The notes below the pieces were generated by a model. The model saw nothing but the letters and a program-made list of their open reading frames with translations. It was not told where the DNA came from and did no database searches. The translations under genes were made by a program, and so were the position numbers. 64,000 nt of DNA from Apilactobacillus apinorum (GTDB taxonomy: Bacteria; Bacillota; Bacilli; Lactobacillales; Lactobacillaceae), in contig NZ_KQ440395.1 of assembly GCF_001281175.1 (NCBI RefSeq), forward strand, positions 207,593 through 271,592, written 5' to 3'. The stretch's first letter is position 1; each line of letters begins with the position of its first letter. This document shows, one piece after another, positions 15,000 through 64,000 of the stretch.

Positions 15000-17900
15000 A
15001 TGCAATACAATAAGAAACGATTTAACAAAGTAAATGACAAAAAAGTCATGAAAAAAGTTAAAAAGCAATGGGTAGTAGTGTCACTATCCACTCTAGCCAC
15101 ATTAGGTGGAGTAACTTACACCATGACTTTCAGTCAAGATGCACACGCTGATAACGCTTCTACAAACACGACTACTAACCAACAATCTGTATCTAATCCA
15201 TCTAGTGGTACTGTTACCAGTGGAGCTGTTCAAACTACAGCTGCTGCAGCTGCAAGTACTACTAGTGTAACTAATACAAATAATATTAATGCTTCTTATG
15301 CCAATCAAAGCGCCGGAAGTGTGGCTGTTACTGCAGCGACTCCCGGAAATCAATCGTTGTCATCACAAGCCCAATCTGCATACAACACAGGACTTGTGGA
15401 TTTATCACAAACTAAATATAGTTCGTCAGGGGCATCAATAGCTGCTAATCCTGCATCTTCTTTAATATCATCTTCTCAAGCTTCAGATGTAGCAAGTGCT
15501 GCTTCAGATGCCATTAAATATAATGGTGCGATTAATCAAGCCGCATCTGACGCTTTTGCCGGAAATGGTAACAACGTTGCAACTGTCGCTTCAGATGCCC
15601 AAAACTACTACAATGCTGCCTATTATGGTGCCAGTAATGCTAAGAGTTTATACAATAACTATGTAAATGGTTATGGTACAGGAACTCAAGATTACACAGC
15701 TTTCTCACAAAACACTAATACACCAGGATCATCAGCTTCCGGTGCAACTTCATCTGCCCAAGCAGCTACATCAGCTCATTCAGCTGCCTTAAGTTACGAA
15801 AGTAGTTTGAATTCTAAATTCAATGGTAAATCTAATGTAACTGTGCATTTAGGTGCTGCAGAAAATGGCCAAATTAATATTCCTACCAATACTGATAGCA
15901 ATATTACCAGTCAAAATACCTATACTGCTGGATCTGAGCTATATAATGCTTACCAATTCGGGGTTAACTATGCCTTAGCTCATCAAGGAACAGAAGATGC
16001 TAAAGCTGGTAAGTGGTCAGGTATTAGTACTCAACAAGGCTTAGTCTACGATGCATCTCGTCAGTTGAGTTTTCCGGGTGATAACTATCATCCATTAATC
16101 CAATCTACTAATCCATATGATCAAGCTTACATTGGTGCACAACAAGCCATGAATGATCAATGGGGAACTAACGATACTATTCAAAAATATGGATATGTAC
16201 TACAAAACGAAAATACAAACGCTAACTACCTTAATGGTAGTGCATATTATCAAATGGCATACGATAATGTTGCCCGTGAAATGAACGATAATAACACGGC
16301 CTTTGTTCATAATGCATGGCAATTCCAACGTGCCTTAGCAGGTAATTATCACTCTGATTGGAGTTTTGCTTCATTTGTTAATGGTAATAATTCCGGTTAT
16401 TCTGCATATAATGATGCGATGGGATTAGGAATCAATGATGAAGGTAAAGGATATAGTAATGTTCGATTAGTTAACGATATCGATTTCCAAGGAGATCCAT
16501 ATGTAGAACATTGGCCAACAATCCAGCATTTAAAAAACTTAACCGTTGATGCGCAAAATCACCAAGTTGATTTCCATGGGGTATTGGATCAATTCGTTGC
16601 TGATGCTGGGGTCAACCCAGTTCTTAATATCAAGAACTTCCAAATGGCATACTCATACAACTATTATGGTTTCTTAAAGATTAACCAACCAGGTACGGTT
16701 ATTTACGATAACGTTAACTACATGGGGGCTCAAATGCTTTCTGACTGGCCTGCCGGGGGTAACGATATTCGTTTTAAGGGAAATATTAATGAAATTAACG
16801 TTTCTACTTATCAAACTTCATTAAATAATGGGATTCATCCAACCGAAGGTAATGGTAACCAAGAAAATATGGAAGTCCAAAACTTACTACTATATCCTGG
16901 CTCTAAATACTTCGGTTCAGTTGCCAGAGATTACGGTAACAACGTTATTAAGCTTTCAGGTAGTTTAACTATGAATGAAGGATCTCAAATGACATTGATA
17001 CCCCGTGGTAACGGTGGATACTATGCTCGTTTGGGTTCAAACTATGGAATCGTGGTTACTAATGGTGCTAACTTAAACATCAATAAAGGTGCCACTTTAC
17101 AAATTATTCCAGATGCATGGAACGGTAGTACATTATATGCTAACGGTCTATACACATACGGAAATGTTAACATCAACGGTGGGATTTTAGATATTGAAAC
17201 AGCAGCGCCAAGTTATAACTCTGATGCCACAATGTTTGTTGATTCCACTGGTCAAGTTAATATTTCTAATGGTGGTTTAGTAATGGTTAAATCCCAAGGG
17301 TTAGGTAGTTCTACCACTGGAACTTCTTATGGGTTGCTATATAACAATAACGGACAAGTTAATGTTAATAACTTAGGGAACCTATATATTAGTGGTGATG
17401 GTACAGGCTTAATTAACTTGTTGGCCGGTCCATTGAACATTACTAATCCAGGCCAAAATAATATTACACTAGATTTAACTCAAAATACTAATACCAGCAG
17501 TCGTATTTCTAACGGTAAAATAGACGCATATACTTCATTGGTTACTTACGGGGTAGGAGTGCAAGGCTCTAATGGTTTGATTGCTGGTCAATCAAATACA
17601 GGATCATCTAAAATTCTATACAGTTTCCATTTATATAATAAGAATGGAAACTATACCAATAGTTTTGTTGATGCTTCTGGTAATAAGGGATCATTTACTC
17701 AATCAGGAAATCCTAACTTTGTTCAAATCGCAACGGTTCCTGCAGTTTATTTCGTAGGTCCTATGACTCCAGTTTTAAATTCTGATGGAACATATACATT
17801 AACTGGTTATGCACAAGTCAGTGATCGTAAATCAACTGATACGGACCCAATTTATGCGCAAATTGGTTATGGTACTCAAAATAGTTATCCAACTTTAACA

Positions 17901-20900
17901 ACTGTAGGTAATAATATTTTTAATACTGTAACGGTGGATAAGAATAATTACACTCAAGCAATTCAAGTTCCTGCTAACTATAATTATGAACTAATCAAGT
18001 ACAGCATTAATATGCCAAGTAATTACAACCCAACGAAGACACCATACGTTGGATTGCTTCTTCGTTATGGAGTTGATGGGGTTGATACGGTTGCTCAAGT
18101 TCAAACTAAGCAATTTACTTCTTCACAACACAGTTATGATCTTTCTTCTGATGGAAAATCATTAGTTGATCAAAGTCAACAAGTTATCGATACTGGTAGT
18201 TACTCAAGTATCGGTGATGGTCGTGACGATGCTTTATACTACTTATCTAATGGTAATCAAGCAGATCAACAACGTTACATTGATAGATACAAAATTGATG
18301 ACGATTACACCAATGGTTACAACAGTGTAATGGCTGGTTACAATGCTTTTGCACAAGGTGCACCAGATCCAAATAATAATCCAGGTGCCATTCAAGTTGG
18401 AAGCGTTGCTGAAAACATTGCTAAAGACAACAATTCTATCACTGACCCACAAGGTTACATTGATGGATACAATCGTGCCAAAGCTGATGCCAAAGGAACA
18501 TTGTCAGGACTTAATGACTTCATTAACGGTCAACAACAATCATCAACTAATTCGTATGTAAACCCTGATCCAAGTTCAACTGCTACATCAAAACCAACTG
18601 CACAATATACTGATAACTACAACAACGCTTATTACAATGCTGTGCAAGGTTATCAAGATAGTAAGGTGACAACTGTTGAAGCAAATCCTAATAACGTTGC
18701 TTATGATCAAGGATTCCATGCTGCTGATAACTTTAAGCAAGGAATTCAAGATGCTGCTAACGGAAAAGTATCAAATGACTCATTAAACAATAATGCAGCT
18801 TATGCAATCGGGGTTAACGCGTTTAATGCCGCTAAAAAAGATGTTACAACTGGTTCAACTACTAATACCAACGGTCAATTGATTTTGACTGATGCATATA
18901 ATTTGGCATATCAACAAATTAAGTCACAATACGATAATGGTGCTAACTCATTCTTGAATTCAGATTCAAATGATACCTCATCATTACCATCACAATATAA
19001 AGATGTTTCAGCTCAAGGATACCAAGATGCTATTGATGGATATAATGGTGTTAATGATGGTCACCAAAGTCTATCTGGATATAAACTAGGTCAATCCATT
19101 AAATCTGGGGAACAAGCGCTTGTTAACGGTGGAACTAATAATCCATCTAGTGCATCTAACCAAGCTGGATACACTAAGGGTTACCAAGATGCGTTAAATG
19201 GATTCCAAGATGCAATTAAATACAACGTTGCGAATGGATCTAATATGAGCACAGACACTCTAAGTGGTAAAACACAAGCATATAAGGATGCAGTTGTAGC
19301 TGCTCAAAGCGCCACTCAAGCGATTCAAGATGCTAAAAACGATATTGATAATAACCACGCATCAGATATTTCTTCTCAACCTAAGGCATACCAAGACGCA
19401 TATAATGCGTATAGGGATGCTTATTCAGCTGTGGCCAAAACAGGAACAGCTACTAACTTAGATGGCAAGAGTGATATCTATAAGATAATTTACAATTCTG
19501 AATATAATGATATTAATGCTAAGTATCAGAATGGACTTAATGATTTTATTCAAAATAAAGGTTCACAAAGCAATAATGACGTATATAGTTCATCATATAA
19601 TGATGCGCAACAAGCATTTAATGATTTTAAAGCTAAATACGTTGATGGCAATAATCCATCATCAGTAAATCCAAGTAATCCAAGCAATCAATCGCAAGCG
19701 TACTTAAAGGCATTCCAATACGCTAAGGATGCACAAACCGGTGCATATGAAGCTACTCAACAATATGGTAACTTTAATCGACCAACACAAAGTAATAATC
19801 CAGCTTATATGGATGGATTTAACGCAGTTCGTGATGCATATGCTGACGCATCAGTTACTAACCCAACTCGTAATTTAACTAATACCAGTGTTTCTTATCA
19901 ATCTCAATATCAAAATGCACTAACTAAAGCACAAAATGCATATAAGAATTCAGTGAACGATTTCTTGAATGGAAAAGCTGCCGATAGTAAAGATGTATTA
20001 TGGCAACAAGCTCAACAAGATGCTTCATTGGGATATCAAGCAGCTTTATCTGGTAAGACTAGTGAAGAATTAAATTCTGTGCAAAAAAATAATATTGGAT
20101 TTATGCAAGCGTTCCAAGCAGCACAAGACGCCCAAGCTGGATATCAAGCAGCCATTTCACAACAATCTAATAATGGTGTTAATAAAGATTTTGAAGATCA
20201 ACAACCTAAAGATAATAACGGTAATATTATCGATTCAGCTAAATATGAAGCTTATTTGGGTGCCCAAGCAGGACTACAAGGGACTTCAGTTGATATAAGT
20301 AAGAAACCAATTGCATACCAACAAGCATATCAACAAGCTTATGCAATTAGTCAATCAGACGCCGAACAAGGGGTTAAAGACTATTTGCAAGGAAATAAAA
20401 ATGATGATAAGTATAAAAATAATGCTAATTATAAGAGTGGATATGATAAGGCTAAACAAGGATACGGTAATTTTATCTGGGATAAAGGATGGAATTCTTC
20501 CACAAGTATCAGTGCTTTAAAATCTTCAAGTACCGATAATTTAGTTAATTTAGGTTATGAAGGAGCACGTGGAACATATTCATACTTAAATGGTAACCCT
20601 CTAAGAAATTCTGCGTTATCAGATGGTAATCAACAAATCGATGCTTATTCTATTGGATATTTACAAGCTCAAAAAGGGGCATCAGATGCTCTTGCTAATT
20701 TGAGTAATTTAGATACTAATTCTAATGCATCAACTAATACTAGTGATTCATATCAAGCGGGATACAATAACGTTACTAAAAGTGTTCTTGCAGGTTATAA
20801 AAAGGCTTTGCAAAATCAAAACAGCACTGAGTATAGTTCGGTTACTGCCAATAGTACTAACTACGTTGAAGCTCAAGCATATAACGCTGCAGTGGCTGGT

Positions 20901-23900
20901 TTAAATGCTGCTAAAATGGGTACAGAAGACCCTGCGATTATGAACGTAACGGATCCTTCACAAATTACTCCATACATTGCTGTATATCAAAAGGCTGCCA
21001 GAGCTTATGATGCACAAGCTGCGAATGGTCAAAACGATTTCATTAATAACGTTAAATCCAATTCTACTTATTACGTTACTTCATCTACTAACGATGCAAT
21101 GAAAAATGCATATACTAATGCTTATAATGCAGCGTTAGCTGGTTTTAATGATCATGTTACTGATGACCAATCTGGTGCGGCTAATAAGAGTCACCAACCG
21201 ACTGATTCAACTTTAGCAGCTTATAACGCTGGATATGATGGTTACAATCAAGCTAAGCAAGGAGCAGCGGATGCCCGTGCTAATTTAGCAACTGCAACTA
21301 TCACGACTGCTAGTGGCAAATCTCAACTATATGTAGATGGATATAACGCTGAAGTTCAAGCAATTAATGATGCTCAAAGAGGTAAAGATAGTACAGTAAC
21401 TGATTGGTTTAGCAAGAAGTACAACGGGACCTTAAACTCAAATTATAATAATCAAGACCAAGCATTTAAGAGTCTATATTCACCATTACTAAGCAATGTA
21501 AATGCTGCTTATAATCAAGGAGTAAGTGACTACTTAAACACTAATGGTCACGATGCAACTTATACTTCTAATAATTCAGATAAGGTCTATCAACAAGGTT
21601 TCCAAGACGCTAAAGATGGTGTTAATGCAAATACTCAGGATTCAAATAGATATAATAATAGTGTGGGATACCAACAAGGTTTTGATTATCAAAAAAATAT
21701 TAACGCTGGATTTAATCTAACCCAGTCCAGTATAGGTAAGACGGATCCTAATGTAACCATTAACGATGCAATTCAAGGGGCGGCTGCCGGATACACTGAC
21801 AGTCAAAACGGTGGCTCAGGTACAATAAATCCGAATAAGTCATTGGCATATAATGTCGCTTATGAAAGAGCATTTGCAGATGGTCAATCTAAATTTATTG
21901 CAGGAGCTACGCTATTCTTAAGTGGTAAGGATAAGAGTAATGGATTAAATGGATATCCAGGACAAGCTACTTCAAATGGATATAGTAATGCTAGAAGTGG
22001 TTACTTTACAGCTGCAGAAAATCAGACACCAACGGATGCACAAAAAGCTAACCCAACATTTATGATGGGTTATAACGCTGCCATCGTTGCAATGGCAGCC
22101 AATAAAGGTTTGACCAAAGATCAAGCACTATCACAGATTACTAAAGTTACCGGTGATAATACTGATTATGGTCAATTCTATGATCAATCACAAAATGGAT
22201 ATGTATATGGAACCAATAATTCAAGTGTTAGCTCATACCAAGCTCCGGCATATCTAACGGGTTATTATGCTGCTCGTGGTGTTCAAGACTTTACTAGTGG
22301 CAATTCGCAACAAACTCAAAGTGGAACTACTAATTTAGACGACGCAGCAGCAGCACAAAATGCTTATAGCTATGGATACACGCAGGCTCAATCAGGTTTT
22401 AACGCTGCTACCAATGGTCAAAATAATACTACTGGTCAAAGTAGCGCCTACGCTTCCGGGGTAAGTGCCTTTACGAATGCATCTAATTCAGATGTTCAAT
22501 CAGCGATTGCATTAGCCAAACAAACATTTGCAAATAATCCTAGTCTAAACGTTAACAATGACACTCAAAATACTATTAGAGCTGCACTTAAAAACGGTCA
22601 GTCTGGTTACGCAAATAACCCAAATAAACCATTTTCTACGATTGCTCAAATTGCATACTTGAATACTTATATTCAAGCAAGTAATGACTATGCTAAAGGA
22701 ATTAATGAGTTTTTGAATGGTAATGATAACGATGCAAGCGTTCCTAGTGGTGCTTCAGATATTGAAACGAATGGTTTTAATGCTGCAAAAGCAGCTTATA
22801 ATAACGCTTTAATAACTGGAAATACTAATAATTTAGGAACTATTCTTCATTTGCCAGCTAAGGACACAACTACGCCTGCTAATAATATTGCTTATACAAC
22901 GGGTAATAATGCAGCAACTCAAGTCATCCAAGCTTTTAATGATTTAAGATCTAAGGGAACCTTGATTCCACAAAGTAGTGGAGATTCAAATTACCAAACT
23001 GCTGCTACGGCAATGCTTCAAGCTCAAAATGATTTGATTGCTGGAATTCCTGAACAAGATAATTCCAATAAGAATAGCTTAGTATATTCAAATGCATATA
23101 AATTAGTATATGAATACTCACAAAATGAATACCAAAATGGTGTTAACTCGGTTATTAATAATACACAATTGGATAATGATACATTTGCTATTCAAGGTGC
23201 CAGTCGCGCCAAGAGTGGTTTTAATGATGCTCTTTCTGGATTAAATCCTATAAGCAATAACGATCAATATAAGCAAGGTTATGATGCCGCAATGGCAATT
23301 AAACAAGCTTATATGGATACGATGAACAATCCTAACAATACTACCAACTATACTGGTGATAATTCTGGTAATCAAAATGACACTAAGAATGCTGTTATTC
23401 AAGCGTTAAAAGATTTCAAACAAAATCCTAACGTAGCGATAAGTAATACCAATAATAGTAATGGATCGACTGCTTCTACTGGAAATGTCGGAAATAATAC
23501 CAACACAGGTAATACTTCCGATGCAGCAAAAATTAATGGTACAGGAATTAGTAATATTGTTTACAATACCGCTTGGAATTCGATCCAAGGTGCAGCTATG
23601 AACGGTATGAATAACTACTTATTCAACCAACACATGCTAGGAAATCTAACTAGTGATCAAGCTAACATAATTGGCAAGACTACTGACCCTGATAATGCAA
23701 CATCCTTCACAGAAGCTGAGAGTCAAGGATTTGTTCAAGGATATCAATCAGCACAAAGTGGATTTAATGATGCTGTTAATGGAAATAGTAGTACCAGTGC
23801 TGCGGTGAAATCATCTAACTTCTACATCAATGGTTATACTGAAGGTAGTCAAATTAGATCAGCGGTATTAGCAGCAACTGTTGATGGTCCACAAGGAATT

Positions 23901-52500: not shown

Positions 52501-55500
52501 GGTGACAGCAGTCAAACTAAAACAGCTGATTTTAGTACTTACTACAACACCCAAGGTCCAGCATATCAAACTGGATATCAACTCGGTCAAAAGTACGCAT
52601 CTGAATACAGTACAGCTGTTAGTAAACAAGCAACATCTACAGATGACGTCATTAACGCTGTTAATGACGTATTAGGTAGTATTAAGACATCTGGAACTGC
52701 AGTGGATCCAGCAACCTCTAAGACCGCATTATACAAACAAGTTTATTATGTTGCTGCTCAAAATATGATGAAGTCATATATAAATGGATCCAGTCAATTC
52801 ATTAATGGTGGTAGCAAAGTAGATTCTAATAATGCTAACAATATGTATGGGGATGCTTTCTCCACAGGTTGGCAAGATGCTAAGGATGGACTATTACATG
52901 CATTTAGTAAGGCTAATACGGCACCTAACGGAACTGCCCAAGCTAATGGATACACCTACGGACAAAGTATCTACGCTGGTGCAATGTCAACTAGTCAACC
53001 TGCGGATACAACTTCGATTGCATATAAGGGTTACGTGGCCGCTCAAGCTGCTTTAACTCAAGCCAAGAGTGATTATGAATCTCAAAAGACAGTTGACATC
53101 AATAATTTATCAATTCCATCAGGAATAGATAATGGTCAACAAGAAGCTTACAAAGCGTTCTATATTGGTGCTTACTATGCTTACAGTAAGAATGACAGTG
53201 ACACACTACCATCCGATATGAACAATGATTTGAGTCAACGCGCTAGACAAGTGGCCAAGACCTCTGATCAAGCTTTCAATGGGTCACAAGCATTCCTTCA
53301 CAATCAGGCAGATCCAAAAAACAATGCACAATTTACGACCGGATATAACTTAGCTAAAGATGGCTATGAAGACGGTCTTATTAATGGTGCCGCTAACAAG
53401 GATCAATTAACTAATGGTAAATCAGTCTACTATACTAGTGGTTATAACGCTGGAATCAATTACCACGATAGTTATGTAAAAGCGGCCAATAGTCAACCAA
53501 CAGATAACACCCAAACCTACGCTGGAGCAAGTGCTGCCTTTAGCGCTTATATGAGTGCAACTACTGATGCTCAAAAAAATGCCTTAACTGATAAGTTGCT
53601 AGGTGGATCAGATAGTGGTGAATACGTCAATGCATACAATACAGCCTTGAGACAATCTCGTGATTCTACAACTCAAGGGGCTAATGACTTTATCAATGGT
53701 CAAGGCCGCGCAACACTACCATTTAGCAACACTCAGATTATTTACAATCAAGCATTTGCAGCAGCACAAAAAGGGTTCCAAGAAGGTCTAACTAATAGTG
53801 CTGCTACCAGCAATAATGCAAGTGAAACTGCTGGGATCAACGCCGCTAAGAACTACTCTGCAGGATATACTCAAGCCCTTTCAGATTCAGCTAGTGGAAC
53901 TAGTAATCCAAATGCTCATCCAGAATTGGTAGGATACAAGGATACTATTCAAGCACTCCAAGATGCGCAAAATAATCAAGTAAATCCTAATAATACATCT
54001 CCAATCTATGCAATCGTCACTGCGCAAAAACTAGGGATGAATGATGCATTAGCTAAATTGAGTAATTCAACAGCTAACGCAGCTACTTTAGGTGATAATG
54101 ATCCAGTAACTAATTCAGAATCACTTAGTGATGTTTCATACAAGACTGGCTACAACGCAGTAATCGAAGGATATCTAGATGGTGTTTCAATTACCGCAGG
54201 TAGTTCAGATCGCTACTATGCTTCACCAAATAACTCTAACCCAGCATATCAATATGGTTATTCCCAAGGTAATGTTATTGGTAGAAAAGAAATTGGGGCA
54301 ACTGATTTCTTAGCAGGTAAAACTAATGGTGCTACTAGTGATACTAACTACACTACTGGTTACAATGACGCTAATACCGGATATGATGACGGGATTGCAA
54401 ACAATGCGAAGTCATTGACTTCTAAGGAATACAATCGTGGATATGCTGCCGGACAAACTGCGCGTGCAGATTACCAAGCTGCTGAAGGTAAAGCTAACCC
54501 AAGTGCCAGTGATTCAACTTCAGACACTTACAAAGGGGTTGCTGACGCCATTGCAGCTGCTAAACAAACGGGTAAGGTAACACCAATTACAGTTGATGCT
54601 AACCATAGCGCCGCTTATGTTATGGCTTACAATAAGGCTGGAAACGATGCCACTACTGCTAGTCAAGCAGGACTAGCTGCTTTTAATAGTGGTCAAGTGG
54701 CTAACCCAAGTAGCCAAGCAACAGTTGCTAACCAAGCGGTTTACAACCAAGCTTACAACGATGCTACTAATGGATTTAAGCAAGGATTGAATCCAAATAA
54801 CACGACAGAACCAACTGCAACGAATGTTAAAGTTGGATTTGATAAAGCTAAAGCGGTTGCTCAGGGTTACCAACAAGCAATGAATGATTACTTGGCTGGT
54901 AAGACTGATCCAACTGCTAATAATCAACCGGGTTATGCCGATACTATGAACGCATTATTAGATGCTCAATCCAACAATAGAAATGCAACTAACAATACAC
55001 CGCTATATGCAGTTGTATACTCACAAGCCGCTGGTGCTAATGATGGTTTAGCAGCTGTGAAGAACAATCTAAGTACAGCCAATACCACTACTGTACCAAG
55101 TGATCGTCAATCAACTGTTAATGCCAACGCATATCAATCAGGATATCAAGGTGCTATTGACGGTTATAAAGATGGTGCAGCAAGCACTCAAGGAACCACA
55201 ACCAACAAGGATACCACCCAAACTGGTAATCAAATTTATCAAAACACTTATACCCAAGGGAATAGCGCCGGTCGTCAACAAGCAGGTGCCAACGATTACA
55301 CCAAGGGAACTGTTGATAACGCAGTGAAAGCTTCAGATAACAACTATGCTACTGGGGTCGATTCAGCTGCTAGTGGTTTTTCAGATGGTAAACAAGCTGG
55401 TCAAACTACAAACAGTCCAACTCCAACAAGTACTGATAAACCATATGTAACTGGTTTTAACCAAGGGGTAGCAACAGCTTCAGGGTCTAAAGAAGCGGTT

Positions 55501-58500
55501 CAACCTGGTTCAACTGATGAATCTGGTTTAACTGGGGATGCTAAGAACGCCTACTACGGTACTAAAGATGGTTATTTAGCTGGTGCTAACGCCGGATCAA
55601 TTATGTCATCACTACCTTCAAACAACAAGGGTGCAGATTTACAATCCAACTCATACACTAGTGCATACCAAGATGCATATAACGATGGGGTAGCTAAGGC
55701 TAACTTAGGAGCGCAAAATGCATACACTGGTACTAAGGTTGCGGACTACGCTAACTGGAATCCACAACAACAAATGGCTTATGACCAAGGAGTAGCCAAT
55801 GCTAATAGTGGATACAATCAAGCTGCTAACAACATCAATGCTACTAGTGCCACTTCATCTACTAATAATGCGCAAAATGCATTTAATGGTGCTAAATTAG
55901 GTTTCGCGGATGGAACTAATGGAACTACTACCGATGTTTCTAGCCAACCACTTGATTATCAAGTTGCATATGCCAAAGCTAAACAAGCAGCAGCTACTGC
56001 TACATCCCAAGGGGTAGCAAGCTTTTCAGCAAATGCTGGTGATACTACCCATGGTGACACAGATGCTGCTGGTAACGCTCAAAGTCATGGTTACCAAGCT
56101 GCTAATAGTGGGTACACTGCTGCTAAGAATAATACCGTTGATGCACATAATACGGATCCATCATATTTAGCAGGGGTTCAACTAGCTCATGATGTTCAAC
56201 AAGGTGTCAAAGATGCTACTAACAACCCGGCTATCAGTAACTATCAAAGTGGTGATGCAGCGCAACAAGCTGCTTATGCCGCAACCGTTGCTGGATACAA
56301 TGATGGTGTTAACGGTACTACTAACGGTGCCACACCAACTGGCAATAATGTTAGTCAATCCAAAGCTTATCTAGATGCATATGCTGCAGCTAAGCAAAAT
56401 GGTATCAACCAAGCTGCTAATGGTGCTCAAGCATACATTAACAACACAGCTATCAATAATGGTACTGATGCTAATAGCGTTGCTCAACAAGCTGGTTTTA
56501 ATAAGGCACAAACAGGATTTGCTGACGGACTAGCTGGTAATGACAATAGTCAAAACCCAAGCTATCAAGTTGGATACAATGCTGCTCAATCAGCTAAGAC
56601 TGGTTTATCAGATATTGAAAACGGCAACAATAACGGTCAAAGTACTGCTGCTAACTCAACTGCATACAGTGCAGCTCGTACAGCATACCAAGACGCATTC
56701 ACTGCAATGCAAAAGAATCCAGATGACACTAGTCAAACTAGCACCAATAATACTCCAGCTTATCAATATGCATACAATCAAGCTAAACAAGATTTGAATG
56801 CTCAATATGAAGCTGGTAAGCAACAATTTGTAAGTCAATACATTAATGGTCAAAATGCCGTTAATACAAATAGTGCTAAGAGTTCACAATCACAATCAAT
56901 GATGACTCAAGGGTTCCAAGACGCTTTAGGTGCATTTAACGAAGCAATGCGTGGTGCAACTAAATCTTCTAAGAATACTACTGGTGCTCAAGCTGGTTTT
57001 GCAGAAGGTCAATTAGCTAACAAGGCAGTTCAACAAGTTACAAACGGCCAAACTACTCCTGACAGTAATTCTGATGTTTATTACCAAAAGGCATTTGCAG
57101 CAGCTCAAGATGCGCTTAGTGCCTTTAGTAAGAACCCAGATACAGCCGTTTCAGCACCAAGTACGAATACTAATGCTAATAATCCAGTTTACTCAGTAGC
57201 ATACACTGCCGCTATTTACCAAATGAAGTCTAATTACAATAGTGGGGTTCAACAATACCTATCAGGTAAGACTCTTCCAAGTAATGCAACAGCTTCATTT
57301 ACTACTGGATATAACGATTCATTAAATGGATTCCAAAGCGTGCTAAATGGATCAGGTACTCCTGATGCTAATGCTTATGGATATATTACTTCTGGTGCCA
57401 ACCAAGGTAAGCTGGCAGGTCAAAGCGCATTAGCCGGATACAATGCAGGAATGATTGGCAATACTGCAACTACTACTGATCCAGTGCAAAATCAAGCTAA
57501 CTTAGGAACTGTTGCTGGATACAAGGATGCTTTATCAAGTAGTAAACGAAGTGATTCTCAATTAGCAACCATGTCACTAGCTTATCGTGAAGCTTACAAT
57601 AAGGCATACAATGACGTTAAGACTGCTGCAGACACTGGTGCTACAAACTTTGTGAATGGTAAACAAGTCGATAAGACTAACCCTGAATATGACAGAATTA
57701 TACAAGGATACAACTTTGCCCAAAGTGGATTTAACTATGCGCAAAGTAATCCAAACGTCACTGCTAGTCAATTGACTGCAGATCAACAAAATAATCCTTC
57801 ATTCATGCGTGGTTTCTACTCGTATGTAAATGCTATGCAAGGATTCCGTGACGCTCAAAACGCAACTAGCACCACCACTCCATATAACCCAACATACCGC
57901 GAACAACAACGTGGTTACAACGGTGCTATGGATGGTTACAGTGCCGGTGCAAACGGTAATGTTATAAACAATAATACCGGTGTCACACCAGCATATAACG
58001 CTGCATACGCATTGGCTTATCAAGATGCGAAAGCCAAGGCTTCTTTAGGTGCGGCCGATGCTAATGGAAATACACCAGCTCAAAATGTATCAAACTACAA
58101 TGCTCGTCAATTAGAGGCTTACCATGCTGGACAAACTAATGCTAATAATGCTTATGTTCAAGCTAAAGCCAATGTTACTATATCTAATCCGTTTGTTACT
58201 GGAACAGATGCATCAGATACTTTTAATGGTGCACGAGCCGGATTCATCGCTGGATTCACTGGTAATGGATCAATCCCATCCGGTAGCAATGCCGTATATA
58301 CATCTGCATATAACAAGGCGCTAGCAGAAGCTCAATCTAATGTCTCTGTCGGAATTAGTGACTTTGCCAAAAATATTGATGATAGTGCTAAAGCTAATGC
58401 GGTTGATGCTACTAACCAAGCTATTTACAATGGATATAATCAAGCAAGTGATGGTTACACATCAAAATTAAACGGAAACGTTGATAGCGCAAATAATAAC

Positions 58501-61500
58501 TCAGCTTATCTAGCAGGGGTTAATATGGCGCAAGATGAACAAAATGGTTTGAATGACGCAATTGCTACTCCTACTAAGACACCATCTGGTAGTGCATCAT
58601 ATGTAACAGCATTTAATGCAACTCTCGCTGGATATGCAGATGGTAAGAACGGAACTACTGCTCACCAAACACCAACTGGTAATGATGTGAACCAATCTCG
58701 TGTATACCAAGACGCATATGCTGAAGCTGTATCTAATGCACAAGAAAATGTTACATCTGGAGCAACTGCATTTACTGGTAATACTGGTCAAGCAGAAACA
58801 GGTAATGATGAAAATTCACAAGCTAAAGCTTTTGGTTACCAACAAGCTAAAGCGGGACATGATGACTTCGTCGCCGGTAAGACTACCGCTCAATCTAGTG
58901 TTCCATCATACGTAGTCGGATTTAACGCTGCTAAGTCAGCTCAAGCTGGTTTAACTGATGCGCAAAATGGTACAAATAGTGGTCAAGCAAGTGCATTAGA
59001 TGCGGTTGCTTATGGGGATGCTCAAACAGCATACAACGATGCCTTTACAGCATTGAAGAATAACCCAGATGATACTAATATCACACCATCTGCATCTAAA
59101 TCAGTGGCATACAATGATTCATACGCTGCTGCCAAGACTTACTTGAGAGGTCAATATCTTGCTGGTCATCAACAATTTGTTGCTGAATACGCCAACGGTG
59201 CTACCCAAGCTGATCTAACCAACGTTACTTCAACTCAATCACAAACATTGTTCGCAAACGGATTTAGTGATGCAGTTGCGGGATATAATGAAGCAATTAC
59301 AGCTAATAATATTAACGCAACTGCTAATTCATCTGATAATTCAGGTAAACAAGCCGGGTTCGCTGAAGGACTACAAGTCATTAAGGGTGCTAACCAAGTC
59401 GCAGCAGGACAATCAACTGATGCTAACAACAGTGATTTAATTTATCAAAAAGCGGTTGAAGCAGCTCAAACTGCTAAGACTGACTTTAAGTCTAATCCAG
59501 ATGTTTCAGATAACGTTACATCTACTGATAGTAACTTCTCAAGCGCACCATATGTAAATGCGTTTAAGTTAACTATCGATCAAATGAGAACCAACTATCA
59601 AAATGGTTATCAACAATACCTATCCAACCAAGCTGTAACAACTAACACTACCGATGAATACAAGGCAGGGGTTAGCGATGCAACTAATGGATATAAAGAT
59701 GCGATGAGTGGACAACCATCAGCAGGTCAGACTTCTGGTTATGCAGCTGGATACAACCAAGGTAGACAAGCATATGCTGGATACATGCACGCTTTAAACA
59801 ATGAAAGCAACACTAATAGTGCAGGTGCCCATCAAGATAATGCTTATGCTGGTGCCCAAGCCGGAATTTCTGATGCAACAACTGCTAATGGTCAAATCAA
59901 GACTGATAGCCAATTAAGCGGTCAGTCATTCGACTACATTCAATCTTACAAACAAGCTGTTTCAGCAGCTCAAAATTCACGATCAAACGGAGCAACTGCT
60001 TACTTGACTGGTAGTGCAAGACCAACTGGGAACACAGCCATTATCACTTCTCAACAAAACGGTTATGATGATGCTCAAGCTGGTTATCAAGCTGCTACAA
60101 GTGGTTCCACCAAGGACATCCTTACAGCTGAACAACAATCTAATAAGGAATTCATGGCTGGTTTTAATTCTTATCAAGACAGTATGTCAGGTTTCAATGC
60201 TTACCAATCAGGTAACCAATTAGGTTCCGATGCTACAGCAAGTCAACAAGATGCCTATGCTGGTGCCCAAGCTGGATACCAAGCTGGAGCTAACTATCAA
60301 AGTGTTAACTTAGCTGGTAAATCACCAGCTTACGTAACTGCATTTAACAAGGCAGTCGAAGACGCTAAGAAGTACGCTTCACAAGGTGCTGCTGAACAAT
60401 TAGGTGCTACTCCAGTCAGTGAAGATGGATGGACTACACCTCAAAAAGCAGCTTACGCAGCTGGTAAGCAAAATGCCCAAAATGGATACGATCAAATCAA
60501 ATCAAACGTTAGTGCAACTAACAATAATACCAACCCATCAGATGCTTATGATGCATTTGCGGGTGCTCAAGCTGGTTTCAATGACGGAACTAGTGGTGGA
60601 ACAACCGTTGATTTAACTGGTAAATCACCTGTCTTTGTTGCTGCCTACAAGAAGGCTCAAGCAGAAGCTGAAGATGCCGTTAAGAAGGGACAAGCGCTAT
60701 TCCAAAGCTCTGGTGTTAACACCACTATTTCTGGTAAAGATGCATTGAGTGTCGCAACTAACAATGCCTTTACTCAAATGAAAGCTGGATTCGATTACTA
60801 CAATGCTCATAAGCAAGATGACAGTAGTAACCAAAATCAGTCATATCAAGCCGGAATTGAAATGGCGAAGGAAGTCGCCCAAGGAATCGCGGACGCGCAA
60901 AGTAATGCGAATAATCCTAACTATACCGGTTCAGCTTCTCAAGTCGCTGCCTACAAAGCGGCAGTTGCTGGATATTCTGCATCAGTTAATGGATACAGTG
61001 ATGGTTCACACAACGTGAATACAAACAGTACCCCATCTGATAAGACCCAAGCAACAGCTTACAACTACGTCTATGCACTATCATGGACTAGTGGTCAAAG
61101 CGATGCATTGCTTGGTGCTCAAGATTATGAAGCAGGTAAGACTAATAATTATGACCAAGGGGTATCAGGACGTGCTAAGTCTGTCGGTTTTGAAGATGCT
61201 AAGCGCGGTCATGATGATGTTATTAACAAACAACCAGCTAGTGGTAATCTTACTGATTCATACAAACTAGGTCGCGATACCACGAAGGCCGCTCAAAGTG
61301 CATTAGTGGATGCGGTTAATGGTGTTAATAATGCCTCAACTAGTCAATTTCAGAGTGCTTATAACGATGTGCAAACTGCATATCATGATGCTGCACAAGC
61401 AATCTTGGCTAACCCAGACCATCCAGCATCAATGGCTAGTGGTAAATCAGTGCCATATCAAGATGCATATCAATCAGCAATTGATTTATTGACCAAGCAA

Positions 61501-64000
61501 TACCAAAACGGTCGTGATCAATTTGCTAGTCAATATGCAACTGGTAATGGTGCGGATACTAATTCTGTTGCATCTGGTGATGCTAGAAGCGTTCTTCAAT
61601 TGGGTTACAACGATGCATTAGCTGGATACCAAGAAGCAATTACTGCTAATAGCACTGCGGCACAACCTAATAGTAGTGATAACCAAGCTAAACAGGATGG
61701 TTTCGACCAAGGTATTATTGCCCTTCAAGCAGCCCAAAACGTGGCTAATGGTGAAGTTCAACAATCACAAACGGGTCCAATGTATACAGAAGCATTCGCA
61801 GCTGCTACCCAAGCTGCGGCTGCTATGCATGCTAACCCACAATCTTCTGACACAGTTGACAATAGTAATCAAGTTTACAAAGATGCATACAAGTATGCTA
61901 TTCATGCAATCCAAACCCATTACAACCAAGGTGCTCAAGACTTTTTGGCTAACCTAAGTCAACCAAGTGGGACTACTCAAGCTGATATTGATGGTTACAA
62001 CAATGCGAAGACGGCTTATACTCAAGCAGTTCGTGGAGATTCAACTACTACTTTGAGCGATCCACAAAGTCAAAATGCATTTAACGTTGGTAAAGAAGTT
62101 GTTACCGGAGTTAGATTAGCTATTAACAAGGGAACTTTAGATAGTACTGCGAGTGCAGCTGAAACAGATGCATTCAATGCAACTTCACAAGCCTACCAAG
62201 ATGCTAACAGTAATACTAAGAGTATGATTGACCACCCAAGTTTGGCATACACCACTGCATACAACTATGCTTTGAGAAGAGCTAATAATGAACGTAATGC
62301 AGGTGCCCAAAGTTATGTTGATAATAATAATTATCAAGCTACTGACAAGACTTTAACCGCTGAAGCTCAAAACAATGGAGCTCAAGCTGCTAAAGCTGGT
62401 ATTCAAGATCAAAAAGATAATACAGGTACCAATGCAAATACTGATACAGCATACCTAATTGGTTATAACTCTGTTTCAGGAGCAACTGATGGTGCCAATG
62501 ATGCTAAACAAGGTAAGACTCAACAAACAGACTTTACTGGTAAGTCTCAAGTTTACATTGAGGGTTACAATGCTGGATTTACTGGAACACAAGACGGATA
62601 CGCTGCTGGTCAAAATGATAGTCCAGTTTCCAGTTTTGATGGCAAGTCTCAAGCATACAAAGATACCTACAACAACGCATACAATGATGCAAAGACTTAT
62701 GCAAATGCAGGTGCCGTTGATCAAATGAACGGATCCCAAACTCCATCCATTACAATCACTGCCGGTAATACTCTAGAACAAACTGCATATAATACAGGTA
62801 AGGCTAACGCTAATGATGCTTACCAATACGCTCACGATAATGTTAATAACACTAATAAGTACACTTCCGGTACAGACAGTTATGACACATTCAATGGTGC
62901 GCGTGATGGATTTACTGCTGGAAAACTCGGTCAATCCAGTGTGACTCCACAAGGTAGTACACTATATCAATCTGCTTACAATAAGGCTAGACAAGTTGCA
63001 GCTCAATCAACTATCAATGGGATCATCGCATTCCAAGCATCTAGCTTGAATCAAGATGCAACTATTTACACCCAAGCTTTAAATAAGCAAGATGTTGAAA
63101 GTGATGCCTTTGTTAACGCTTATCAAAAGACTAAGGCTGGATTCAATGCCCAAATGGCAAGTTCTACCGACTTATCATTATCAGATACTTCCGAGTCTTC
63201 ATACAATGCTGGAATTATAATGGCTAAAGACCTTCAACTAGGAACTTTAGATGCATCTAACAATCCAAGTCGTTCTAACTACCCTGGAACTGCTACTCAG
63301 ATTGCCGCATACTATGGAACTCGTGACGGATACAATGATGGTAGTCATTTCAATACAACAACTACAATGTACACTTCATTGGCTGTTCAAACTTATGCTT
63401 ACCAATATGCATATCAAAAGGCTAAGGCATTAGGAGCAACTAATGCTTTAACTGGAGCTAACACCTACATTCAAGCTGATGCGCAAAATACAGGTGTCTC
63501 TGCTGATGCACTAGCTCAACAAAGTGGTTATGCCGATGCTAAGGCAGGACATGATGCCTTTAATTCAGGATCTACTCAACCAACCACTAGCACTGAATCG
63601 GCTGCATATATTGTTGGATACAATGCTGCAAAAGATGCCCAAACAGGTGCAACTAACTTTAATGCTTTAACTAGTGATAAGGTTTCAAGTACTGTTACTG
63701 ACACCACCGTCAATGCTTCACATAACCAACTTGATGGTTTCAATGGTGCAAGGGATGGTTACCTAGCAGGAATTACAAGACAAACAGCATTGATTTTTGA
63801 TACTAGTTCTGGTCAGTCTAGAGCATATCAAGAACAATACAATGCAGCTTACAGTACTGCTAGATCAACCGCACAAAGTGGTGCTACTGCATGGTTAAGT
63901 TCATCATCAGTTGATCAAACTAATTGGACTCAAGCGCAAAAGAATGCTTTTGCATACGGGCAAACAATTGCCCAAACAGCTTACAACGATGCATTAAATA
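46558..64000 (+). CDS. Giant secreted repeat protein 3, 5' part (at least 5814 aa; 3' end outside window)
   Basis: Starts MQYNKKKFTKTNDKK at ATG 46558 and stays open to the last base, so at least 17.4 kb is coding. Signal peptide at 1-49 (KKVKKQWVVV core, cut near ARA/DS), then a Gln/Asn/Ser linker and the conserved AQNYYQASYDGA/GAGTQDY domain. The beta-helix head is at ~450-830 (IKLVSDINL, NHMIDMHG, GGNQENLEV, LNVNKDATLNVIP). The second beta domain is at ~851-981 (TFAGPITR). From ~1000 on, helical Tyr/Gly/Ala repeats continue to the edge, with about 35 units seen by eye. By analogy with giants 1 and 2, a basic SLAP/DUF5776-like tail is expected beyond the window. It is already longer than both paralogs. 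Function as surface fibre or adhesin is inferred. Confidence 0.9.
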   Translation, partial: MQYNKKKFTKTNDKKIMKKVKKQWVVVSVASLSMVGAVAYGTGSVKARADSNEVTAQSLSPTEQEVADNTNSSNTSSNQQTANQQNNSQQSSSDNDGGLSSRMGSASSSVAAYNNTDQSQTYAAAINQGASDAYNKKGNNAANLSGQAQNYYQASYDGATSALNAYNSATQGQGAGTQDYTFYGNTPAKVSGYTGDKSNGATGSTGGVGGSSIVSSGGGSIPTTGSTGSDLSGTPQGYGTLSSSGQGGADDPQSALNSAQNYQNIKVNKLNSANNYSVQTNGSAIGVPTTNSQAILNDRKKYDPYAGLQNAFNQGVNYALAQQGMSDAESGKWQGVDSSGSGNTQDFYYNQSVNNNIDLHQSSNPYDQAYIGAKDAIAAQFDNFNNYQGKVSAISSSTYGTVYLNAYNDVANQTNNGTAFVANGNQFFAVAMGNTNFSGGGTIPNNITTIKLVSDINLNGVSNGETKGTYNGNGSLTFDGQNHMIDMHGLSYNINNVSQLKIQNFQTIYDANFYGPFINAQNGASIRYRNINYVGPQLLSSTNNDAYFSGNVNVIIPQSSDYYFSPFNGGTGIYIEGGGNQENLEVNNFILEPYSNYFGSIGNSGGSNINAQGNVTLGQGSNMTVMPANGGQSSFNGGNYGVYLSQPGAQLNVNKDATLNVIPVKFTQAYYGAGIATSSSSAINVNGGTINVEVTGQSGTYNQPINLQGSTKFNILNGGLVQLKVSNQNAVNPYFGFLTQINGSNLNIGNRGNLVVQIVDNTGTSGSVPVYGQALVANNVGSSKIVLTKNDATRQFDNYRITAYTVAVNGTSYYYFNLPGGSRNFTAVDSNGNKVSGTITGNTLEIDPIPSITFAGPITRTQNADGTSTINAYARVTKYSASNGPVYVGVYTGNGTNISKMQLINGQSGNNTIFNSTQTVDPNSYTTSQTINSNYQDGQIIPISFNLPANASTGFGMRLTYGLSTVDMTSDGNSYTGTVEGYSGGNGRISLDNNGTFTTDSGSVGTVNQGIIDGITDSINGNNNAKSKQTFTIQTSPDYLSGYQGAQLGYSAFDKTQPDQDYTQLASYNNSDNPGAFIRGYQEAAYQAGLADAKYSRNNGAQNSSYQEAQTEYTAAYQASFNALGQTAQNIINNNNLVTSNLDGMSASATYAGITDGQGVAAFFADEKNGSNITVGSFNGNNWSTIQSDPNQVAAYNAAAVGFNNAINLSDPSGSNPDSSASRAEQEAFLYGKSLVNGALSQTLPTQTSSAIPNLAAGQLGWQAEQAGYQAVQQAAKQAISNKQNISSIPEASYTDPSQLGSDNFSGDITIYKQAKYGAYQALKKNSQAGLNQIQLAGYMNTIIPLATQQGISDFQNGTTTASLGSLWDQYYNQSFNNAQSAFNQGVQDGLAAVQANNQTSNVGNATTATASGESSSYLIGYQGAVDGYKAGLTGTTPAASGTTNAYQKAYQSGMNPARRVAGANDYVKTGKAQSSDQYYMNGYSTAQQAQNDGYSAYNSITNPNPTTNSSDAAYVIGFNYGVQNSKDAQGFIDGANAFANNALNSGTTNGSAKYQSNYQAGFNAAYNGVSNGFRGVRPQSLDTTTRDINGATAIGYNAFFGSNGVLAAMRAQDFSAQNISVSSNYSTPFNVAIDVFNMQKSSLQKTTYTTVYNQNAPLASLVNFFVTNSIVPLYSQGINAYLTGGAKPTRPFAIAGYSDAQAGFNQTTGVPNTSSGYQAGLKQRNDMQNGIAAAMSDATTSNQQAVAANASKQSADYIAAYQATIAGYNDGTLGTNTDLTNKSKVYKLAYQSALTAGKSQAVQAQKDFVYGTVKDASENDKGADKLSYQAAQQSIFSGLSDGLNSTNQNTNSQYAFGQSIANQINTKSPQVDSTKDPHITNSTSNDLTTYVNNDIQNALVDSHDDVFEGNGQSKERTDGQGTIYQILYTQLYNSLEDSYKQGVNDFKNQVTYTGSFTYNNTPEYSLGYLNAAKGFEIGLTGDSSQTKTADFSTYYNTQGPAYQTGYQLGQKYASEYSTAVSKQATSTDDVINAVNDVLGSIKTSGTAVDPATSKTALYKQVYYVAAQNMMKSYINGSSQFINGGSKVDSNNANNMYGDAFSTGWQDAKDGLLHAFSKANTAPNGTAQANGYTYGQSIYAGAMSTSQPADTTSIAYKGYVAAQAALTQAKSDYESQKTVDINNLSIPSGIDNGQQEAYKAFYIGAYYAYSKNDSDTLPSDMNNDLSQRARQVAKTSDQAFNGSQAFLHNQADPKNNAQFTTGYNLAKDGYEDGLINGAANKDQLTNGKSVYYTSGYNAGINYHDSYVKAANSQPTDNTQTYAGASAAFSAYMSATTDAQKNALTDKLLGGSDSGEYVNAYNTALRQSRDSTTQGANDFINGQGRATLPFSNTQIIYNQAFAAAQKGFQEGLTNSAATSNNASETAGINAAKNYSAGYTQALSDSASGTSNPNAHPELVGYKDTIQALQDAQNNQVNPNNTSPIYAIVTAQKLGMNDALAKLSNSTANAATLGDNDPVTNSESLSDVSYKTGYNAVIEGYLDGVSITAGSSDRYYASPNNSNPAYQYGYSQGNVIGRKEIGATDFLAGKTNGATSDTNYTTGYNDANTGYDDGIANNAKSLTSKEYNRGYAAGQTARADYQAAEGKANPSASDSTSDTYKGVADAIAAAKQTGKVTPITVDANHSAAYVMAYNKAGNDATTASQAGLAAFNSGQVANPSSQATVANQAVYNQAYNDATNGFKQGLNPNNTTEPTATNVKVGFDKAKAVAQGYQQAMNDYLAGKTDPTANNQPGYADTMNALLDAQSNNRNATNNTPLYAVVYSQAAGANDGLAAVKNNLSTANTTTVPSDRQSTVNANAYQSGYQGAIDGYKDGAASTQGTTTNKDTTQTGNQIYQNTYTQGNSAGRQQAGANDYTKGTVDNAVKASDNNYATGVDSAASGFSDGKQAGQTTNSPTPTSTDKPYVTGFNQGVATASGSKEAVQPGSTDESGLTGDAKNAYYGTKDGYLAGANAGSIMSSLPSNNKGADLQSNSYTSAYQDAYNDGVAKANLGAQNAYTGTKVADYANWNPQQQMAYDQGVANANSGYNQAANNINATSATSSTNNAQNAFNGAKLGFADGTNGTTTDVSSQPLDYQVAYAKAKQAAATATSQGVASFSANAGDTTHGDTDAAGNAQSHGYQAANSGYTAAKNNTVDAHNTDPSYLAGVQLAHDVQQGVKDATNNPAISNYQSGDAAQQAAYAATVAGYNDGVNGTTNGATPTGNNVSQSKAYLDAYAAAKQNGINQAANGAQAYINNTAINNGTDANSVAQQAGFNKAQTGFADGLAGNDNSQNPSYQVGYNAAQSAKTGLSDIENGNNNGQSTAANSTAYSAARTAYQDAFTAMQKNPDDTSQTSTNNTPAYQYAYNQAKQDLNAQYEAGKQQFVSQYINGQNAVNTNSAKSSQSQSMMTQGFQDALGAFNEAMRGATKSSKNTTGAQAGFAEGQLANKAVQQVTNGQTTPDSNSDVYYQKAFAAAQDALSAFSKNPDTAVSAPSTNTNANNPVYSVAYTAAIYQMKSNYNSGVQQYLSGKTLPSNATASFTTGYNDSLNGFQSVLNGSGTPDANAYGYITSGANQGKLAGQSALAGYNAGMIGNTATTTDPVQNQANLGTVAGYKDALSSSKRSDSQLATMSLAYREAYNKAYNDVKTAADTGATNFVNGKQVDKTNPEYDRIIQGYNFAQSGFNYAQSNPNVTASQLTADQQNNPSFMRGFYSYVNAMQGFRDAQNATSTTTPYNPTYREQQRGYNGAMDGYSAGANGNVINNNTGVTPAYNAAYALAYQDAKAKASLGAADANGNTPAQNVSNYNARQLEAYHAGQTNANNAYVQAKANVTISNPFVTGTDASDTFNGARAGFIAGFTGNGSIPSGSNAVYTSAYNKALAEAQSNVSVGISDFAKNIDDSAKANAVDATNQAIYNGYNQASDGYTSKLNGNVDSANNNSAYLAGVNMAQDEQNGLNDAIATPTKTPSGSASYVTAFNATLAGYADGKNGTTAHQTPTGNDVNQSRVYQDAYAEAVSNAQENVTSGATAFTGNTGQAETGNDENSQAKAFGYQQAKAGHDDFVAGKTTAQSSVPSYVVGFNAAKSAQAGLTDAQNGTNSGQASALDAVAYGDAQTAYNDAFTALKNNPDDTNITPSASKSVAYNDSYAAAKTYLRGQYLAGHQQFVAEYANGATQADLTNVTSTQSQTLFANGFSDAVAGYNEAITANNINATANSSDNSGKQAGFAEGLQVIKGANQVAAGQSTDANNSDLIYQKAVEAAQTAKTDFKSNPDVSDNVTSTDSNFSSAPYVNAFKLTIDQMRTNYQNGYQQYLSNQAVTTNTTDEYKAGVSDATNGYKDAMSGQPSAGQTSGYAAGYNQGRQAYAGYMHALNNESNTNSAGAHQDNAYAGAQAGISDATTANGQIKTDSQLSGQSFDYIQSYKQAVSAAQNSRSNGATAYLTGSARPTGNTAIITSQQNGYDDAQAGYQAATSGSTKDILTAEQQSNKEFMAGFNSYQDSMSGFNAYQSGNQLGSDATASQQDAYAGAQAGYQAGANYQSVNLAGKSPAYVTAFNKAVEDAKKYASQGAAEQLGATPVSEDGWTTPQKAAYAAGKQNAQNGYDQIKSNVSATNNNTNPSDAYDAFAGAQAGFNDGTSGGTTVDLTGKSPVFVAAYKKAQAEAEDAVKKGQALFQSSGVNTTISGKDALSVATNNAFTQMKAGFDYYNAHKQDDSSNQNQSYQAGIEMAKEVAQGIADAQSNANNPNYTGSASQVAAYKAAVAGYSASVNGYSDGSHNVNTNSTPSDKTQATAYNYVYALSWTSGQSDALLGAQDYEAGKTNNYDQGVSGRAKSVGFEDAKRGHDDVINKQPASGNLTDSYKLGRDTTKAAQSALVDAVNGVNNASTSQFQSAYNDVQTAYHDAAQAILANPDHPASMASGKSVPYQDAYQSAIDLLTKQYQNGRDQFASQYATGNGADTNSVASGDARSVLQLGYNDALAGYQEAITANSTAAQPNSSDNQAKQDGFDQGIIALQAAQNVANGEVQQSQTGPMYTEAFAAATQAAAAMHANPQSSDTVDNSNQVYKDAYKYAIHAIQTHYNQGAQDFLANLSQPSGTTQADIDGYNNAKTAYTQAVRGDSTTTLSDPQSQNAFNVGKEVVTGVRLAINKGTLDSTASAAETDAFNATSQAYQDANSNTKSMIDHPSLAYTTAYNYALRRANNERNAGAQSYVDNNNYQATDKTLTAEAQNNGAQAAKAGIQDQKDNTGTNANTDTAYLIGYNSVSGATDGANDAKQGKTQQTDFTGKSQVYIEGYNAGFTGTQDGYAAGQNDSPVSSFDGKSQAYKDTYNNAYNDAKTYANAGAVDQMNGSQTPSITITAGNTLEQTAYNTGKANANDAYQYAHDNVNNTNKYTSGTDSYDTFNGARDGFTAGKLGQSSVTPQGSTLYQSAYNKARQVAAQSTINGIIAFQASSLNQDATIYTQALNKQDVESDAFVNAYQKTKAGFNAQMASSTDLSLSDTSESSYNAGIIMAKDLQLGTLDASNNPSRSNYPGTATQIAAYYGTRDGYNDGSHFNTTTTMYTSLAVQTYAYQYAYQKAKALGATNALTGANTYIQADAQNTGVSADALAQQSGYADAKAGHDAFNSGSTQPTTSTESAAYIVGYNAAKDAQTGATNFNALTSDKVSSTVTDTTVNASHNQLDGFNGARDGYLAGITRQTALIFDTSSGQSRAYQEQYNAAYSTARSTAQSGATAWLSSSSVDQTNWTQAQKNAFAYGQTIAQTAYNDALN
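49560..64000 (+). repeat. Protein-coding repeat array of giant 3
   Basis: Helical-looking units with markers such as GISDFQNGTT, GANDFINGQG, GATDFLAGKT, GVQQYLSGKT, GATNFVNGKQ and GATAYLTGSA recur throughout. The array is still running at the window edge. Unit loops are rich in Asn, Thr and Ser. Confidence 0.85.
55876..64000 (+). repeat. Higher-order repeat in giant 3, period about 2.34 kb (778-784 codons)
   Basis: Landmark 1 (NAFNGAKLGF, DTFNGARAGF, DAFAGAQAGF, DTFNGARDGF) lies at 55876, 58216, 60550 and 62884: 780, 778 and 778 codons. Landmark 2 (GFADG or GHDD/GHDA) lies at 56518, 58858, 61210 and 63550: 780, 784 and 780 codons. Landmark 3 (KNPDDT, NNPDDT, ANPDHP) lies at 56716, 59062 and 61411: 782 and 783 codons. 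At least three full blocks are present. Confidence 0.85.

Follow-up and report, generated by a model that had tools for sequence, protein, structure and literature searches.

Five giant surface-protein genes of Apilactobacillus apinorum and a neighboring glycosyltransferase pair as candidate modifier of the serine-rich fifth

We analyzed 64,000 nucleotides of the genome of Apilactobacillus apinorum, a bee-associated lactic acid bacterium (G000:C1:207593-271592; hereafter, the window); positions beyond 64000 are given in the same frame. A sequence-only reading of the window had described three same-strand frames of 5497, 4880 and at least 5814 codons, and all three are present at the coordinates below. 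That reading took the cluster to consist of three genes; ORF reading past the window extends it to five consecutive giant genes on one strand, with giant 3 ending at 71439 and two further giants following it.

15000..31493, + strand: giant 1 gene, open frame of 5497 aa, ATG start
31500..31537, + strand: intrinsic terminator after giant 1, -21.2 kcal/mol, z -7.8, also in the consensus scan
31701..46343, + strand: giant 2 gene, open frame of 4880 aa, TTG start
46349..46390, + strand: intrinsic terminator after giant 2, -22 kcal/mol, z -6.9, absent from the consensus scan
46558..64000 in the window (true end 71439), + strand: giant 3 gene, open frame of 8293 aa, 5814 codons in the window
71721-89249, + strand: giant 4 gene, open frame of 5842 aa, beyond the window
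89439-99125, + strand: giant 5 gene, open frame of 3228 aa, beyond the window

The cluster totals 84,126 bases (84.1 kb), or 5.76% of the 1,460,240-base genome (9 contigs), so the share of 'over 1%' proposed from the window was set too low. Translation of the whole frames shows no internal stop in any of the five, and frames of this length cannot be due to chance. By eye, a start 15 codons downstream of 89439 looks likelier for giant 5. TTG starts recur in giants 2 (at 31701 here), 4, and 5 in several genomes (G003, G007, G015) and might tune translation. Downstream of every giant gene there is a strong stem-loop with a T run; for stretches picked by eye, folding energies range from -20.9 to -26.8 kcal/mol and z scores from -5.7 to -9.0 (the consensus terminator scan covered 31300-46700). 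This is consistent with the terminators ascribed earlier to the two completed genes, and each giant is therefore probably its own transcription unit.

The cluster is of the published Giant1-5 type of Apilactobacillus kunkeei and its relatives (PMC4494060, PMC12863079), a likeness that had been recognized from the window. Going by length, giant 1 may tentatively be equated with the 'Giant0' type of PMC12863079. In composition, all five proteins hold 0 or 1 cysteines and 7 to 16 tryptophans. Alanine makes up 13.0-18.7% of giants 1, 2, 3, and 5 and 6.9% of giant 4. Serine is at 7.9-10.1% in giants 1-4 and reaches 18.5% in giant 5, which has a Ser/Ala-rich stalk with 21-25% serine over residues 751-3000.

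Giants 1-3 share the domain order already proposed for them: a charged signal, a linker, a beta-solenoid head, a second beta domain, a helical array, and a basic tail. Structure models were made for the giant 1 head and for a piece of the giant 3 array.

15000..15149, + strand: giant 1 N-terminal signal with a KKVMKKVKKQW motif, KxYKxGKxW-like; cleavage site by eye
16272..17432, + strand: giant 1 predicted beta-solenoid head, covering the 5ny0-aligned residues 425-811
18387..30449, + strand: giant 1 repeat array (approximate limits), with Y..G motifs and with autocorrelation at lags 4 and 7
31263..31475, + strand: giant 1 C-terminal DUF5776 (PF19087, 45.2 bits, cut-off 27)
32715..35063, + strand: giant 2 head and second beta domain, aligned to the homologous giant 1 head (33% identity, E 1e-71)
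34698..45380, + strand: giant 2 repeat array (approximate limits), with autocorrelation at lags 4 and 7
45906..46325, + strand: giant 2 C-terminal DUF5776, two copies (PF19087, 30.3 and 52.2 bits, cut-off 27)
47551..49815, + strand: giant 3 head and second beta domain, aligned to the homologous giant 1 head (33% identity, E 2e-69)
49555..64000, + strand: giant 3 repeat array, start approximate, running past the window, autocorrelation at lags 4 and 7
54358..56217, + strand: modeled segment of the giant 3 array, residues 2601-3220, predicted all-helical with 22 helices

Structure prediction, named by the sequence-only reading as a check on the head and the repeats, yields a beta-solenoid for the giant 1 head and an all-helical piece for the giant 3 array. 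The head model (802 residues, 23 sequences) has a mean pLDDT of 77.8. Foldseek returns four PDB matches with E ≤0.001, all to serine-rich repeat proteins (SRRPs) of Limosilactobacillus reuteri, the best being 5nxk (7.5e-5). The top match of a second structural comparison is 5ny0 (Z 26.1, rmsd 3.2, 306 residues aligned), followed by 5nxk (Z 23.5) and pertactin (Z 19.8). A sequence-level search of the giant heads against solved structures returned no meaningful match, and sequence searches with the giant 1 head as query matched neither the head of giant 4 nor giant 5. The SRRP-type beta-solenoid fold is shown, at the level of prediction, by the model for giant 1 and by homology for giants 2 and 3. 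The array segment (620 residues, 10 aligned sequences) was modeled with a pLDDT of 84.2 and a pTM of 0.73. Its search for a solved relative gave a best E of 0.5 against the PDB with Foldseek and a best Z of 6.2 over 79 residues in the second comparison; we rejected assignment to a known fold on these weak matches, which do not in themselves establish a new one. At the C-terminus, all five giants match DUF5776 above the profile cut-off, and the last 350 residues carry net charges of +46, +43, +47, +64, and +19 in giants 1 to 5. The genome holds 17 DUF5776 matches on contigs C1 and C2, among them proteins encoded near 710 kb of C2 (~2128 and ~741 codons).

The giant 1 signal falls under the curated cut-offs (TIGR03715, E 0.05; PF19258, 17.3 bits vs 23.6), as do the signals of giants 2 and 3, and a pattern search finds no strict KxYKxGKxW in the giants. 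An aggregation-substance model that matches the giants' N-termini (E 9e-4 to 6e-5, 17-21 of 1500 bits) was set aside, as it covers only the signal and linker. Each of the 16 genus genomes encodes a single SecA, whose score (912-922 bits) falls short of the 930-bit SecA2 cut-off. In a test set of 13 genomes, a second SecA lies above the cut-off in four, at 968-1009 bits; the cut-off is imperfect, since one test genome (G365) has two SecAs that both fall under it. With one SecA in all 16 genus genomes, accessory Sec export of the giants was rejected. Sortase anchoring was rejected as well: a pattern search found no LPXTG within 80 residues of the C-terminus in any of the giants. A sortase gene is present upstream of the giants at 2011-2673 (PF04203, E 2.4e-25), together with two genes for LPXTG surface proteins at 3358-5277 and 5422-7104, which have DUF285 repeats and a signal motif resembling that of the giants; the product of the second passes the PF19258 KxYKxGKxW cut-off (24.1 vs 23.6 bits). 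Two papers disagree as to the presence of transmembrane segments in any of the giants (PMC10496945 vs PMC12863079).

About 50 bp past giant 5, on the opposite strand and tail to tail with it, lie two genes beyond the window that we call GTA (502 aa) and GTB (549 aa). A 2026 paper labels genes downstream of the giants 'glycosyl hydrolases (tarM and gtfA)' (PMC12863079). Both products match Pfam Glycos_transf_1, which places them in the GT4 family, and both have the EX7E motif, kept in 57/57 relatives of GTB and 44/56 of GTA. Their best families in profile searches are SdgA/SdgB (E 1e-61 to 5e-57; GTB searched without its first 49 residues). The scores against those models, 208.6 and 204.9 bits, are far under the equivalence cut-off of 800, so we regard the two enzymes as related to SdgA/SdgB and do not class them as members. 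GTA is 65-67% and GTB 82-85% identical to the counterparts in seven A. kunkeei-like genomes, where a 467-aa neighbor is 93-96% identical. Relatives of GTA among the matches listed occur in A. kunkeei, A. quenuiae, and A. timberlakei, the closest (88%) being from the metagenome-assembled genome Apilactobacillus sp. MRS2-bin.2. Farther out, locus L009 encodes a 341-aa DUF5776 protein (268-1293) and a 695-aa levansucrase-like protein (1443-3530; GH68, E 1.1e-88).

The pair is found in 14 of the 16 genus genomes, 16 pairs in total. A giant adjoins 14 of these 16 pairs and a giant with at least 15% serine adjoins 11; the genomes in which no pair has such a serine-rich giant beside it are G009, G012, and G014. 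The G009 pair lies between a 3884-aa giant (8.9% Ser) and a partial 797-aa frame (15.6% Ser), G012 has one pair beside a partial giant (1762 aa, 11.0% Ser) and another without a giant, and the G014 pair adjoins none. The second pair of G002 adjoins a 1367-aa giant with 11.3% serine. Giants also occur where the pair does not: G006 has four and no full-length GTA match, and G001 has four and a single distant GTA relative (26-29%). In the stretches read, the giants of these two genomes contain at most 11.1% serine, and beta-solenoid giants evidently manage without the pair. Of the 14 genomes with the pair, 9 have a match to the N-terminal region of giant 5, and the two genomes without the pair have none; given the five exceptions, one of them (G010) 86% complete, the pair does not track giant 5 strictly. 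Two arrangements were noted. The second pair in G002 (L049, G002:C1:138001-152000) is 1 Mb away from the main cluster and converges with an additional giant 5-like serine-rich gene, the N-terminal part of which contains an in-frame TAA. In G008 (L057/L058, G008:C36:45984-63743), a 5919-aa giant with 19.4% serine and 20.4% alanine lies directly 3' of a same-strand GTB-GTA pair; its signal, RMYKSGKKW, is near-canonical and it matches DUF5776, a form between SRRPs and giant 5.

Outside the genus, we examined the first 40 loci among the matches listed (37 genomes; the stronger matches), and both genes are present at all 40. A Ser/Ala-rich giant adjoins the pair at 12 and is missing at 28, one side falling beyond the stretch at five of the 40. 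Among frames of at least 400 aa at these listed matches, 12/38 pair neighbors are Ser/Ala-rich against 6/80 frames elsewhere (Fisher P = 0.0017); over all frames the counts are 12/75 vs 6/255 (P = 5e-5), a less fair test because giants are long. The composition threshold was chosen after two loci had been seen (L079 and L080, on contigs of G101 and G188), and without these the counts among the listed matches are 10/35 vs 5/77 (Fisher P = 0.005). The P values overstate the support, since the 12 positive genomes, from five genera, are not independent. Of the 12 Ser/Ala-rich giants, four have a strict KxYKxGKxW signal, six a near form by eye, and two neither.

These counts bear on a reading in which GTA and GTB O-glycosylate secreted proteins at large, like their L. 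plantarum counterparts, with no special link to giant 5. The L. plantarum pair modifies many proteins (PMC5796085), and the 28 of 40 listed outside-genus pairs without an adjoining Ser/Ala-rich frame mean that the pair could serve such a general role here; against this, 14 of 16 pairs in the genus adjoin a giant, a pattern partly explained by shared descent. We consider a purely general system unlikely, while giving it somewhat more weight than the other alternatives.

A less probable account, which we think has a small share of the likelihood, is that GTA and GTB are wall-teichoic-acid glycosyltransferases of the TarM kind that merely lie beside the giants, the giants being unglycosylated adhesins. 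The tarM label given to one gene in the 2026 paper (PMC12863079) speaks for it, as do matches to TarM structures (GTA 5.6e-25, GTB 7.9e-18). The group of the structure 7ec1, which we take to be SdgB, is nevertheless matched more strongly and is the best among solved structures (3.5e-40 for GTA and 4.4e-43 for GTB, the latter without its first 49 residues); a streptococcal Gtf1 structure gives 5.8e-13 and 5e-28. The teichoic-acid polymerase family PF04464 occurs in all 16 genus genomes, so an acceptor may exist and our attempt to weaken the teichoic-acid account on this point failed. On the other side, the polymerase genes of A. apinorum are on another contig, C2, the polymerase is present without the pair in G006, and in other genera Ser/Ala-rich giants adjoin the pair above the level of chance neighbors among the matches listed.

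Orthologues of giant 1 (50% identity) have 5527 aa in G007 and 5491 aa in G002, and those of giant 2 have 4866, 4579, and 4601 aa. The 8293 aa of giant 3 compare with 8294, 8349, and 8363 aa in orthologues 54-85% identical to it, with 0.4-3.6% of residues unaligned, and open frames of 8265-8366 codons are found in 8 of the 16 genus genomes, the value for G011 possibly being cut by the contig end. Giant3 was also the longest giant, present in all strains, in the 2015 study (PMC4494060). The lengths of Giant4 (5641-5842 aa) and Giant5 (2941-3228 aa; 50-52% identical to the orthologues compared) vary more. We infer that rod length matters. The dN/dS between giant orthologues is 0.10-0.21 in six comparisons, one of which (Giant3) includes A. 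apinorum; dS is high, so the values are rough. At the DNA level, two tiny arrays are all the repeats in 49 kb, the giant repeats having diverged; on this and the orthologue comparison, recent DNA-level repeat expansion was rejected.

Constancy of the rod arrays in length at 54-85% identity is also what would be expected if the giants served chiefly as a coat for protection or spacing, or as a biofilm matrix, with heads serving self-association and not specific adhesion. The giants' occurrence loose in the supernatant, described in PMC10496945 and PMC12863079, fits this as well. The head fold, however, is that of a known adhesin binding region; a shared fold proves no function, and we hold a mere coat or matrix to be rather improbable. 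That the frames result from misassembly or gene decay is scarcely credible: repetitive genes of such length are easily misassembled and the extra giant 5-like gene of G002 has an in-frame stop, whereas here the repeats have diverged in DNA, collinear orthologues have open frames in separate assemblies, and dN/dS is low.

The neighborhood of the cluster differs in its degree of conservation. Three conserved proteins encoded near it (312, 432, and 467 aa) share 92-96% identity with their counterparts in G003, G007, and G015, where these exist, and others are less alike in the same genomes (260 aa, 78-79%; 186 aa, 42-53%; 535 aa, 44% in G007). A. apinorum is on this showing closely related to these genomes and probably a separate species. 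Within the giants, residues 1-7000 of Giant3 are 70-82% identical to G007 and 44-68% to G003, and residues 1-4500 of Giant4 are 73-92% and 43-61% identical, respectively; the final parts fall to 49-58%. Giant5, GTA, and other neighbors place G007 nearer G003. From the alignment of G000:C1:254150-296841 with G007:C1:39880-81999, this looks like between-species recombination across Giant3-Giant4.

The reading that we prefer, and consider reasonably probable as a whole, combines wall-bound rod giants forming an adhesive coat with a giant 5 that is O-glycosylated by GTA/GTB, all exported by the ordinary Sec pathway. The five genes would be transcribed singly and their products secreted to the surface; the signals and the one SecA point to export N-terminus first through the single housekeeping Sec pathway. 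Giants 1-3 would be long helical rods bearing an SRRP-type beta-solenoid head, and for giants 1-4 together the best reading is one of rods attached to the wall and equipped with binding heads. The basic DUF5776 tail, whose domain and charge are evident, would exit last and may cling to the wall non-covalently, so that the giants together could form an adhesive coat. The earlier proposal of very long adhesins or a fibrous coat is in this respect partly borne out: it is the best-supported reading, given the likeness of the predicted head to the SRRP binding region and the published proteomics. Its view that the function is unsettled was also right, in that no binding or knockout experiment was found in the available portions of the literature on the giants.

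The Ser/Ala stalk of giant 5 may be O-glycosylated in the cytoplasm by the adjacent GTA/GTB before Sec export, as in L. plantarum Acm2. There, two glycosyltransferase enzymes add single HexNAc residues to an Ala-Ser-Thr region inside the cell (PMC5796085). Counting against the proposal, the same source notes that accessory-Sec adhesins, once glycosylated, are barred from housekeeping export; the teichoic-acid polymerase genes and the 28 listed pairs without a Ser/Ala-rich neighbor also weigh against it. What suggests the modification is the adjacency of the genes, the homology of the enzymes, and a partial co-occurrence. The pair is beside a Ser/Ala-rich giant in at least five other Lactobacillaceae genera, and 8 of the 12 such genomes have one SecA, the other four having SecA2. 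More tentatively, and as something we would not put at even chances, the coat may have two parts, sugar-free helical and beta rods of near-fixed length (giants 1-4) and a glycoprotein (giant 5), representing a recurring SecA2-free route to serine-rich adhesins. The giants themselves are already in print; what our analysis adds is to suggest the pair as candidate modifier of giant 5, and we found no earlier proposal that giants are glycosylated in the titles and abstracts of the open-licence papers that our searches listed. If true, this would correct the 'glycosyl hydrolases' label in the 2026 paper (PMC12863079) and would hint at serine-rich glycoprotein adhesins made without accessory Sec. 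The pair would offer a direct route to function for part of a genomic investment of ~6%.

Among known systems, the closest is the Giant1-5 cluster of A. kunkeei. As described in PMC4494060 and PMC12863079, it has five consecutive giant genes that occupy 6% of a 1.5-Mb genome and encode proteins featuring beta-solenoid heads, rods of helices, and DUF5776 tails of an SH3b-like type; giant 4 of the published kind has a beta-solenoid and an array of beta domains. Proteomics reported in PMC10496945 and PMC12863079 detects these giants both in cell-free material and in lysates of whole cells. The A. apinorum cluster agrees in its five genes, its share of ~6% of the genome, the heads of its first three giants, helical arrays, DUF5776, signal peptide, and downstream glycosyltransferase genes; it differs in species, in its first giant, which has 5497 aa compared with ~7535 aa in A0901, and in sequence (Giant3 54-74% and Giant5 50-52% identical to the orthologues compared). 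The L. reuteri SRRPs (5nxk/5ny0) share the beta-solenoid binding-region fold predicted for the heads of giants 1-3, and giant 5 resembles them in being serine-rich and beside a glycosyltransferase pair. Unlike the SRRPs, the giants have neither SecA2 nor LPXTG, giants 1-4 are not serine-rich, and head and serine-rich stalk are on separate proteins. The GT4 enzyme TarM is a relative of similar length and a weaker match than the 7ec1 group. Paired GT4 enzymes are likewise found in Staphylococcus SdgA/SdgB and, by description, in L. plantarum Gtf1/Gtf2, and both pairs are reported to act on serine-rich parts of surface proteins (PMC8561734, PMC5796085); GTA and GTB differ from SdgA/SdgB in their scores of 205-209 bits against the 800-bit equivalence cut-off.
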